From positions 1 to 38,058 of IMG/VR virus record IMGVR_UViG_3300035670_000618: a stretch of 38,058 bases of DNA; one strand, 5' to 3'. The notes under the pieces were generated by a model. The model was not told the DNA's origin. It did no database searches and was given only the letters and a program-made list of their open reading frames with translations. Positions 13,615-29,610 of this stretch are shown piece after piece; position 1 is the stretch's first letter; every line of letters starts with the position of its first letter. This DNA comes from a virus. The translations under genes were made by a program, and so were the position numbers.

Positions 13615-14025
13615 TTAAGATTCCAGAATCGATCCGGAGATCTCAATGGTGCAGCTGCCCTTGACGACGCCGTCAACACCGCCGGAAATAGGAACGGCTG
13701 TAACAAATCCGTTGAACGTCCAGTAGCTTCCGTCAGAAAACGTCAGCTTGAAGGGCGTGATAGCGCCTGAAGCCTTGGCCGTGCGCAGCGCGGCATGGAC
13801 CGTGTTGTCCGGAATAAAATTCATTTCGAACGTCAGCTGGCCGTTGTCCTGCAGGCCCATGCGCTTTTCCTTGGCCGTGCTGCTTAAATCCGTGACATCG
13901 ATGACCTGGGCAGAGCCGCCCGGTCCGCTGAACGAATTGATCTCCGGGATGGTTTGATACGTGACCGGCGAACCCGAGCCGATCCCCAGCGTTGTCCCCT
14001 GGGCGGGTATTGCGGATGAACTCAT
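13615..14025 (-). CDS. Major tail tube protein
   Basis: 136 residues. IPAQGTTLGIGSGSPVTYQ and the motif DVTDLSSTAKEKRMGLQDNG belong to lambda gpV/HK97-type tail tube proteins, as does the C-terminal FSDGSYWTFNGFVTAVPISG. It polymerises in rings around the tape measure. Unusually, it is separated from the neck genes by 15 kb; the chaperone and tape measure follow directly as normal. AGGAGG lies before the ATG. Confidence 0.88.
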   Translation of the reverse strand: MSSSAIPAQGTTLGIGSGSPVTYQTIPEINSFSGPGGSAQVIDVTDLSSTAKEKRMGLQDNGQLTFEMNFIPDNTVHAALRTAKASGAITPFKLTFSDGSYWTFNGFVTAVPISGGVDGVVKGSCTIEISGSILES

Positions 14026-15420: not shown

Positions 15421-15528
15421 TTAATGTTTAAGAGCATTTATTACCGCAAAAACCACACTGGTCCAGAAGACCGCCATAATTAAAAACATTAAGCACCAGA
15501 CAAAAACAGCTGTCCTGTCATAACGCAT
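15421..15528 (-). CDS. 35-residue membrane peptide behind the RT
   Basis: An ATG at 15528 with AGGAGG seven bases upstream overlaps the RT stop by eleven bases. The peptide has one strong membrane segment (VFVWCLMFLIMAVFWTSVVF) flanked by a basic start (RYDR) and a short basic tail (LKH). Position and ribosome site support translation coupled to the RT. Function unknown. Confidence 0.55.
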   Translation of the reverse strand: MRYDRTAVFVWCLMFLIMAVFWTSVVFAVINALKH

Positions 15529-16627
15529 CGCTCAAACCTCCTGTTAAAATTGATACCTTTTGCTTTAACCGGTACGTGTTGGCAAATTTGAAGTGACCGG
15601 CATACGAAGACAGCGTGGCCTTGAATTTTTGCAGATCTTTTGCTTCCGAGGTCACGAACTCTCTTATTTTTTGCTTAAGGTTATTTAATACCCTGCGCCG
15701 GACAAGGATATAGTTATGGCGAATGATGTATCCAAGAAAATCGATTCCGGAAGATACGGGCAGGAGCTTGTGCCTTTTAGGATGCAGCTGAAGCTTTAAT
15801 CGTGATTCAACAAATAACTTTATCTGTTCCTTAAATCTCAGCAACTCATCCCAGTCACTGCTGACGATCACGAAATCATCGACATAGCGCAGGTAGTAAT
15901 GCGCCTTCAGTTCGTGCTTAACATACTGGTCCAACTCATTGAGATAGACGTTGGCGAAGAACTGACTGGTGAGATTCCCTATCGGCAGACCGCGTTTGTT
16001 GTTCTTCCCGAACAGGCTTTTGTTTGGAGGAACCTGCGCTAACAGATCCCTGTCCCCTCTTGAGACGTAGAGCTTGGTGCAGTCCCAAAAAAGAACGGTT
16101 TTGATCAGCCACAGTATATCCGGATCTTTGACGTGCTTTTTGAGCAATGAGAAAAGGATATCTTTGTCGATCGATGTAAAGAAGTCCTTGATATCCAGCT
16201 GCAGATAATAGGCGCGTAAATTCCCGTTGTGCGTTATCTTCCTAAGGAACGACTGAAGACGTGTGACAGCCTGATGCGTGCCTTTACCGATCCGGCAGGC
16301 GTAGGAGTCGTGAATAAAGATCGACTCCCATATCTTCTCCAGCTCGTGCACCAAAACATGATGTACAACCCGGTCTTTAAAATCAGCCGCAAATATTTCC
16401 CGGAGCTTTGGCTTCTTGGCCGCAAACAAAATAGAGCGCGAAGGATGGTAAGTTTTATTTTTAAGACTGGTTTCGAGCTCAAGGATTCTTTCACCGGCGT
16501 TGATCTCGAATTTAAGCGCGTTATTGGTGCTGCGCTTGTTCCTTCGGCAATCAAGATACCGCTGGTAAATATTACGATATGAGAACACGCTGCTTGAATC
16601 GCTGGCTGGCACGCACGGGACGCACAT
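15518..16627 (-). CDS. Reverse transcriptase, DGR type
   Basis: Up to 369 residues. The RT palm is complete: YLQLDIKDFFTSIDKD (motif A, about 142-156), RGLPIGNLTSQFFANVYLNE (motif B, 212-231) and RYVDDFVIV (catalytic YVDD at 248-251). The IGNLTSQ version of motif B, rather than the QGxxxSP of group II introns, is diagnostic of diversity-generating retroelement RTs. So are the start (YQRYLDCRRNKR), AADFKDRVVHHVLVHELEKIWE, and the end SYAGHFKFANTYRLKQ. There is no maturase or endonuclease domain, so it is not an intron. The first 55 bases overlap the DUF1566 gene in another frame; the ATG at 16627 lies inside its A-rich region, and a GTG at 16588 is an alternative. The enzyme should make mutagenised cDNA from a template repeat. 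Confidence 0.9.
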   Translation of the reverse strand: MCVPCVPASDSSSVFSYRNIYQRYLDCRRNKRSTNNALKFEINAGERILELETSLKNKTYHPSRSILFAAKKPKLREIFAADFKDRVVHHVLVHELEKIWESIFIHDSYACRIGKGTHQAVTRLQSFLRKITHNGNLRAYYLQLDIKDFFTSIDKDILFSLLKKHVKDPDILWLIKTVLFWDCTKLYVSRGDRDLLAQVPPNKSLFGKNNKRGLPIGNLTSQFFANVYLNELDQYVKHELKAHYYLRYVDDFVIVSSDWDELLRFKEQIKLFVESRLKLQLHPKRHKLLPVSSGIDFLGYIIRHNYILVRRRVLNNLKQKIREFVTSEAKDLQKFKATLSSYAGHFKFANTYRLKQKVSILTGGLSDAL

Positions 16628-17033
16628 AATTGTCGTTGTCCTTATTGTTGTTGTTCACGTTGCCGTTATTGAAGCCCACGCACCACGCGCAGTCATCGTA
16701 ACGCGCTTGCGTTGTTCCAGACCAGTACCATGATGTTTTCGTATCTGGAAAGATATCCGTGTTGGTTGCCGGTTCCTTGCGCGAATAATCCACAAGCGAC
16801 TGAAGCTCGTTGACCTCAGGCAGACGGCCGCCCAACTTTGCGCAATAAGCCTGTGCATCTTCAAAGTCCATCTCCGATCTAGACGTTGGGCCCCACTCAA
16901 TTCCGCACAGCTTGTCTCGCACCCATCCGTCTTCGAGCTTCTGAAACCTGTTAGGATCGCTGAGCAGTTTTAAGAATGGACTGACAATTTCTTCGACCTT
17001 TGTTTTTATTTTTTTCTCATCTTTTCTTTTCAT
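16572..17033 (-). CDS. DUF1566 / C-type-lectin-like protein, likely DGR target
   Basis: 153 residues. A basic helical N-terminus is followed by the DUF1566 (Lcl C-terminal) pattern: LPEVNELQSLVDYSRKEPA, then SWYWSGTT (about 101-108), AWCVGF and YVRPVRAS near the end. This is the fold used as display scaffold by DGR target proteins. Residues 121-136 carry nine asparagines, all AAC or AAT. Residues 112-120 are Tyr, Asp, Cys and Gly codons (TAC, GAT, GAC, TGC, GGC) that differ from AAY only at the adenines, the signature of adenine mutagenesis. It has no signal peptide. The end overlaps the RT gene. Its 3' region may be the variable repeat or the template itself. Confidence 0.82.
   Translation of the reverse strand: MKRKDEKKIKTKVEEIVSPFLKLLSDPNRFQKLEDGWVRDKLCGIEWGPTSRSEMDFEDAQAYCAKLGGRLPEVNELQSLVDYSRKEPATNTDIFPDTKTSWYWSGTTQARYDDCAWCVGFNNGNVNNNNKDNDNYVRPVRASQRFKQRVLIS
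16605..16733 (-). repeat. Candidate DGR variable/template repeat region
   Basis: This covers codons 101-143 of the DUF1566 gene. On the minus strand the stretch 16670-16626 is almost entirely AAY codons separated by GGC, GTG, AAG and GAC, and is followed by the invariant-looking TATGTGCGTCCCGTGCG. No second copy was found by reading the window, so whether it is a variable repeat or a template repeat is open. Confidence 0.5.
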
Positions 17034-27489: not shown

Positions 27490-29610
27490 TCACCTCGCCG
27501 CACAAGTTATCCCCGTTCCGCTTGCATAGCAATAATGCGTTGATGTGTAAATGTAGGTGTCGATTTCAATACTCCCGGCAACATCAAGCGTCCGTGTCGG
27601 AGTAGTTGAGCCAATCCCCACGTTGCCAGCTGATAAGGTATAAATTGCATTATCAACTGTTAATACTTGACTGCGCATCGTTCCTATGACATACAAGGCA
27701 GAAGTAGCAACCGCTGTCCCTATTCCGACATTCCCTGAGAAGTACGAAGGCGACGTCCCGCTTATCTCCAGCCTTGCAGTAGGAGATGAAGTCCCAATCC
27801 CCACATTCGTCTTGCCGTAGATAACACCATCAATCGTTAATCCCTGAGAGTAGACCGAACCATCGACTTCGAGCTTGTAGATTGGAGCGGAGGATCCGAT
27901 GCCGACATTCGCCGAGTTATACGATATCGCCGACCCTGCGGAGCCTGACCATTGGCTCGTTGACGGCCAGCTTGTATTCGTTACTCCTCCAAGCCTAATT
28001 CCTCCTATGGCGACATCTAATGCCGCCGCAGGATTGCTTGTTCCTATTCCGACATTTGTTTTCCCGTAAATCACTCCATCAATGGTTAGCCCCTGACTGT
28101 ATAAAGAACCGTCCACTTCGAGCTTGTATCTTGGGCCAGAGGAACCGACCCCCACATTGCCTGTAAAATGAGGATTAGCCAGCGGAGCATAACTCGCTAA
28201 ATCCGTGTCTAAGGCGTAAATCCCCATGTCGATATCGTTGACCGTCAACGTGATATTAGAAGATAACGCCTTGCTGTTGACCGTCCGTGTTAATGGAACG
28301 TAGGTTGAGGATGCTGTTGCTGATGTCAGATAAGCACCTAAATCCGCAGGCTTAGTTACATTAGCGATATTCGCTCCGTTGCCATAAAGCGTTTGCCCAT
28401 AAATTGAGCCATCGACTTGCAGTTTATAATTCGGGACGGTTGTGCCGATACCGATATTCGTGCCGTTATAAATGAATCCGTCTACACCATCAAGAACTCC
28501 AGCATTATTAAACTGTATCTGTGAGCTTGAACCTCCGGGAGTACCTGAAGATGAACCAGTATTGTCTGCCGCACACGCCCACGCTGACCCGTTCCATTTG
28601 AGCGTTTCGCCGCTGTTACAGGTTTCTATCAGCCCGAATTTGGTTGAGTCGGTAAGAAGTAACCCTCGATTTGCAGTTGCGGTGTAGGTCGTGTTGGTAT
28701 CCGTCGGCGTTCCGCAAGTCAACGTATCACCGACCGCTAAAACATACTGCCCAGCAGAACAGGCTGAAGGATAGCTGTTATGCGTTGTCCATGTGCTGTC
28801 TGATGCAACCGCTGTTAAATATCCCATGCCCGTCCACGGTGTGCCTGTCACATACCCCGCAGACGCATGATTGCCCCATCCATAGGCCGTATTCCAATTC
28901 GCCGAATTGTTTGTTATCGACGTGCCCCATGCCGAGCCGGTGGATAAGGGGATGCCAGCACCTGGGTAAATCATGGCGTCAATCGTGATGTTGCCAGTTA
29001 AAGCCTGCCCGTTGACTGTTCTGGATGTGGGGACGTATCCCGAAAGACTTGCGGTTGTGGCGTAACTTACTAAATCTGTCGGTTTTGTTACGTTGGCGAT
29101 GTTTGTTCCGTTGCCGTAGATCGTGTCGGCGTATAGCGTGCCATCGACTTCTAATTTGTAGCCAGGCGCTGCGGTTCCCACGCCAACGTTGCCGGATGAC
29201 AGCGCATAAAGCACGTTATCAATCGTCAGCGCCTGGCCGTAAATCGAGCCGTCAACTTCCAATTTATACCGCGGCGCGGTTGTGGCGATGCCGACATTAC
29301 CGGTAAAATGCGGTCCCGCCAAGTTGGCTTTCAGGTCTAAAGCGCTTTGCAGGTCTGTCTGGTCCGATAAAGTCCCGGTTATCCCTCCCCACGCTCCGCT
29401 GGCTCCTGCCACAACCATGTCATCGATGCGATCCAAAGCTTTTTGGACAGTGTTGTCTGATTCTTCAAGATTTGTGCCAAAACTTGCGGTATTGACACGG
29501 ACATCCTGCGCCTTCTGTTGATACTGGGCCAGCGCGGAAGAACACAATAAAAAAAAGATAATAAACGCCGCTTTAACTCTTTGCGTAATACGCGACAAAC
29601 TTGTCAACAT
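27490..29610 (-). CDS. Sec-exported fibre-like repeat protein
   Basis: 706 residues. A signal-like start (RVKAAFIIFFLLCSSALA-QYQQ) is followed by about nine copies of a tail-fibre-type unit NVGIGTxxPxYKLEVDGSxY, some with GNGxNIANVTKPxDL between them. Such units trimerise in fibre proteins and are also common in surface proteins of environmental bacteria. The usual C-terminal peptidase/chaperone is absent; the end (YTSTHYCYASGTGITCAAR) has two cysteines. A Sec signal is unexpected for a virion fibre, so it may be displayed on the host or be a fibre whose start is elsewhere. It overlaps the tail completion gene by 38 bases. Confidence 0.72.
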   Translation of the reverse strand: MLTSLSRITQRVKAAFIIFFLLCSSALAQYQQKAQDVRVNTASFGTNLEESDNTVQKALDRIDDMVVAGASGAWGGITGTLSDQTDLQSALDLKANLAGPHFTGNVGIATTAPRYKLEVDGSIYGQALTIDNVLYALSSGNVGVGTAAPGYKLEVDGTLYADTIYGNGTNIANVTKPTDLVSYATTASLSGYVPTSRTVNGQALTGNITIDAMIYPGAGIPLSTGSAWGTSITNNSANWNTAYGWGNHASAGYVTGTPWTGMGYLTAVASDSTWTTHNSYPSACSAGQYVLAVGDTLTCGTPTDTNTTYTATANRGLLLTDSTKFGLIETCNSGETLKWNGSAWACAADNTGSSSGTPGGSSSQIQFNNAGVLDGVDGFIYNGTNIGIGTTVPNYKLQVDGSIYGQTLYGNGANIANVTKPADLGAYLTSATASSTYVPLTRTVNSKALSSNITLTVNDIDMGIYALDTDLASYAPLANPHFTGNVGVGSSGPRYKLEVDGSLYSQGLTIDGVIYGKTNVGIGTSNPAAALDVAIGGIRLGGVTNTSWPSTSQWSGSAGSAISYNSANVGIGSSAPIYKLEVDGSVYSQGLTIDGVIYGKTNVGIGTSSPTARLEISGTSPSYFSGNVGIGTAVATSALYVIGTMRSQVLTVDNAIYTLSAGNVGIGSTTPTRTLDVAGSIEIDTYIYTSTHYCYASGTGITCAAR

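Follow-up and report, generated by a model that had tools for sequence, protein, structure and literature searches.

The window analysed here is the whole of virus record IMGVR_UViG_3300035670_000618 (38,058 bases), in which a terminal repeat is absent. On its minus strand a gene for a C-type-lectin-like protein is followed by a gene for a reverse transcriptase (RT), and the two ORFs overlap by 56 bp (Table 1). A preliminary description of this DNA had proposed just such an arrangement, i.e., a lectin-like gene with an adenine-codon C-terminus overlapping an RT of the type found in diversity-generating retroelements (DGRs, which are hypermutation cassettes), and had recognised a DUF1566 pattern in the first gene and DGR motifs in the second. 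All of this could be confirmed: the first gene matches the Lcl_C family, nine of its codons 122–135 are AAC or AAT (AAY), and the motifs LPIGNLTSQ and YVDD are present in the RT. The lectin is 58% identical to the lectin bearing a variable repeat (VR) at locus L131 (IMGVR_UViG_3300031227_006324), and its Lcl_C domain, with the repeat at the 3' end of the gene, is that of a lectin-like DGR target. Its C-terminal sequence, ASQRFKQRVLIS and stop, continues beyond the usual stop codon of VRs and into the 5' region of the RT gene.

Table 1. Features of the lectin-RT locus (positions in the window).
Feature	Positions	Strand	Remarks
Lcl_C (DUF1566) C-type-lectin-like target gene	16572..17033	-	153 aa; Lcl_C PF07603, E=1e-25
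VR-type (lectin-coding) 5' flank	16713..16772	-	Ungapped flank counts and lectin protein match
Single hybrid VR/TR repeat	16602..16712	-	5' limit approximate, residue 108; aligned to TRs/VRs of seven relatives
Template-like core, residues 122-135	16629..16670	-	Nine AAY codons, none mutated
TR-type 3' flank (spacer/RT 5' end)	16542..16601	-	Ungapped flank counts
DGR-type reverse transcriptase	15518..16627	-	369 aa; RVT_1, E=3e-22; LPIGNLTSQ, intact YVDD

Judged by its sequence, the RT is a DGR RT, an assignment that rests on the adenine-specific repeats of its relatives, the tree of 63 RTs being one without a non-DGR outgroup. The RT nests in a clade of eight (support 100) whose other seven members all have adenine-specific pairs of template repeat (TR) and VR, and within it forms a sister pair with the RT of L131 (71% identity, support 97), so that the DGR assignment made at the outset holds. 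The best match by sequence among solved structures was an entry set headed by 8ub7 (E=3e-42, compared to 8.5e-17 for LtrA). This entry, named just "Reverse transcriptase", we take to be the DGR RT of BPP-1.

Peptide patterns of the lectin gave no confirmed relative in the viral contig collection, and relatives were obtained through the RT instead, from viral and genome collections. Each was screened for a template, before or after the RT, that recurs at a second place with differences at the adenines of the template. Adenine-specific TR/VR pairs were found in 181 of the 209 RT relatives, with the VR upstream of the TR and on the same strand in 174 of the 209, and a wider search of the unpaired loci recovered pairs in several more. 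All seven relatives with at least 60% RT identity were paired and had avd between the nearest VR and the TR, i.e., the layout of the nearest clade is VR-avd-TR-RT. The TR of this group reaches into the RT gene: in 106 of 126 close relatives its end falls 0–45 nt beyond the extrapolated start of the RT (median 25.5 nt). Some loci were organised in other ways. Three contigs from CPR MAGs (L068, L075 and L079) have the order VR-RT-TR, with the VR shortly before the RT, unlike the clade of the window. At L110 (1286-2434) a VR-bearing lectin and avd lie upstream of a DGR RT and avd reaches the RT start, as if the TR had been lost; an adenine-specific TR was not found at this locus. Two different DGRs (L002 and L029) are carried by one 75-kb viral contig, IMGVR_UViG_3300029286_003689.

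Aligned with the repeats of its relatives, the repeat at the lectin-RT junction reads as a hybrid, target-type on its left side and template-type on its right side and in its position. It ends (16602) 26 nt inside the RT ORF, compared to the median of 25.5 nt given above for TRs. Of the 60 nt that follow it, 44 are identical to the TR flank of L131 and only 19–22 to the VR flanks of the same locus. By these ungapped counts (gapped identities did not discriminate) the TR flank was favoured over the VR flank for the 3' side in L131, L132, L135, L133, L003 and L051, and neither was clearly favoured in L002. Over the 60 nt on the 5' side the situation is reversed, with 26–38 identities to VR flanks and 21–26 to TR flanks; each of the seven relatives has the VR flank as the closer one, though in some the difference is small. 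The VRs of the relatives mostly end in AGCCAGTGA or similar, with a stop codon; the repeat of the window resembles TRs here, with AGCCAGCGATTC in this place. When the spacer and the 3' end of the repeat were folded as RNA, their stability did not exceed that of shuffled sequences, in the window and L131 alike.

The core of the repeat also resembles that of a template. Besides the nine AAY codons, codons 122–135 include one AAG and two GAC. Among 160 comparable VRs (those whose TR has at least nine AAY codons, all of them diversified since pairs with fewer than three adenine mismatches were excluded), at least three of the last nine AAY codons were changed in every one, and in none was the set intact. 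With the VR mutation rate of 0.57 at AAY adenines, the probability of finding 18 unmutated adenines is ~2.5e-7. Two details of the preliminary description had to be abandoned here. The RT start codon does not lie inside the A-rich region, its ATG being located just 3' of the AAY cluster (16670-16629), in the conserved 3' end of the repeat. The reading of residues 112–120 as mutated AAY codons was dropped as weak, because L131 has the TGC of 118 natively in its TR and L133 has a GGT in its TR where residue 120 would stand.

Compared to its relatives, the locus is missing the 3' end of the VR with its stop codon, avd and the 5' flank of the TR. A search of both strands of the window with mismatches at adenines left free detected no second copy of the repeat, in agreement with the earlier remark that there is no separate template repeat in the window, and the contig holds a single repeat where a DGR has a separate TR and VR. 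The sole match to a repeat partner, 40 nt at 13650, had four mismatches at positions other than adenine and looks like a chance match. The accessory protein Avd was also missing from the window by tblastn with the Avd proteins of two relatives; its absence had already been noticed. All seven nearest relatives do have avd. Beyond the window, the TR pattern with adenine positions free had no match in the viral and genome contig collections (viral_contigs and genome_contigs), and the same phage was not found elsewhere, either by an exact 26-mer of the RT or by a megablast of phages.

The partner repeat and avd might be located elsewhere, in phage sequence that the contig lacks or in the host, and a contig that may not be circular leaves some room for this. 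However, a relative found through the terminase (terminase relatives are ~70% identical), G008 (L232; 39,943 bases), has structural genes collinear with those of the window, at roughly 40–70% protein identity, and in it the two genes at the ends of the window (the terminase small subunit and the gene at 92-412) are only ~250 bases apart. The window is therefore near full genome length with little sequence missing, which makes a partner elsewhere in the phage unlikely, and the pattern scans of the viral and genome collections did not reveal one either. We consider a partner elsewhere improbable. The preliminary description had left three alternatives, and two of them fared badly: a partner outside the window for the reasons just given, and a template serving a target elsewhere because no target was found in the window or in the scans of viral and genome contigs. 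The third, that template and target have become one, fits best, given the target-type 5' side of the repeat and its template-type 3' side and position. No DGR RT match was found in G008, indicating that the DGR cassette is a variable module of this phage group. The genes of window segment 14066-19448, located between the major tail protein and the replication initiator and including the lectin and RT genes, had no match in the collinear G008, so that the segment can be taken as a variable region of the group. Elsewhere in the window (27700-29300), imperfect direct repeats of 60–119 nt are found within a tail-fibre-like gene of 706 aa (27490-29610).

DGR ancestry, a hybrid repeat and the absence from the contig of avd and of a partner are what the locus presents. 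Very probably the repeat is a join of VR and TR, whether real or made in assembly. The first of these origins, a real recombinational deletion that joined the VR at the 3' end of the lectin gene to the TR before the RT, has in our view close to an even chance. On this reading the cassette derives from a DGR of the Avd/Lcl_C type whose VR and TR recombined through their homology. Such a join would delete the 3' end of the VR with its stop codon, avd and the 5' flank of the TR (~0.6–1.1 kb in relatives; in L131 the distance from VR start to TR start is ~0.6 kb if one counts from the nearer lectin gene and ~1.1 kb from the more distant one), and its product would be a lectin ending in a template-like Asn-rich loop and running straight into the RT. 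The intact RT ORF counts against a real deletion, unless the event was a recent one.

The same join could have been made by the assembler, connecting the lectin side of the VR to the RT side of the TR of an ordinary VR-avd-TR-RT cassette, either by way of words common to both or because rare variants of the VR were collapsed onto the TR, which is constant. This is a distinct possibility, somewhat below even, and we give the two origins about equal weight. In its favour, the virus contig lacks terminal repeats, the RT is intact and the cassette otherwise normal, and hypervariable VRs would naturally form bubbles next to a TR that stays constant. TR and VR have an exact run of at least 21 nt in common in 92% of the pairs of the relatives, and in 43% when only the 5' half is counted, the part that must hold the switch. 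On the other hand, shared runs of at least 33 nt in the 5' half were present in only 7% of the pairs, and the fusion was not seen in any of the 197 relatives that have at least 800 nt of upstream sequence, most of them metagenomic contigs. The fusion is thus rare whatever its cause, and there is no independent case of it. A full-text search of open-access papers found no described VR-TR fusion. We infer only tentatively, at just under even chances, that the join belongs to the phage DNA rather than to the assembly.

There are two further readings of the single repeat. The 3' end of the lectin mRNA might be template and target at once, rewritten in place by the RT, a reading favoured by the template-type core and 3' flank of the repeat and its co-orientation with an intact RT. 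Adenines once lost would however be irrecoverable, yet the AAY core is intact; avd, required in BPP-1 in the assays described in PMC12875486, is missing, and all close relatives keep separate repeats. We regard this self-templating as highly improbable, and a real lineage with a single-repeat DGR that mutagenises itself, without Avd or with an Avd from another element, as slightly more improbable still. The last reading takes the fused repeat for the ancestral state that gave rise to two-repeat DGRs. It would be the simplest conceivable layout, but the window is nested among two-repeat relatives in the RT tree, which rejects it, and we give it practically no credence. The fusion either arose in this lineage as a derived loss or was made in assembly, and it is no evidence that a new functional arrangement exists.

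With Avd, the TR 5' flank and a separate template all missing, the cassette is probably inactive if the VR-TR join is real. In the E. coli reconstitution of the BPP-1 DGR described in PMC12875486, inactivation of RT, Avd or TR brought editing to ~1e-9. Reverse transcription was described there as being terminated by a motif within the avd 3' end. The window is without the whole left side that BPP-1 uses, and an inactive cassette would be the likely outcome. Most likely the cassette belongs to a well-known system and is either broken or misassembled. Its best name is a collapsed DGR, because descent from a DGR is recognisable but two defining features, the pair of repeats and Avd, are lacking. 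If the join is real, recombination between repeats would be a simple off-switch for DGRs, deleting avd and leaving the target fixed with the loop of an unmutated template. A join made in assembly would be a warning that a VR can be fused to a TR in metagenome contigs, so that a DGR appears to have no template. In both cases, a lectin frame running into the RT, a TR-type 3' flank and an intact AAY core provide a signature for surveys of RTs without a detectable template.

Among the loci compared, that of a Nealsonbacteria MAG contig (L059) is like the window in that the lectin adjoins a related RT (54% identity) with no avd between them, and unlike it in that the lectin ORF is closed by a stop codon of its own and the VR core is diversified. 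The contig starts inside the lectin gene and the diversified VR ends just before the DGR RT (1-1472). A TR was not found in the 6.4 kb of this locus examined, which may be a second template-less case or a cut contig with its TR off the contig. The DGR of Bordetella phage BPP-1 has an RT homologous to that of the window (32% identity to brt) and a target of the same C-type-lectin-like class. It differs from the window by its avd and its separate TR and VR, which were required for activity in the experiments described in PMC12875486. The closest counterparts are the canonical Lcl_C-target DGRs of phages and uncultured bacteria, for example that of L131. It still has avd and a TR apart from the VRs of its two lectin genes, whereas the window shows a single hybrid repeat and lacks avd. 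It is like the window in RT and lectin sequence (at the identities given above), in the type of lectin target and in a TR that overlaps the RT start at the same offset as the window repeat.
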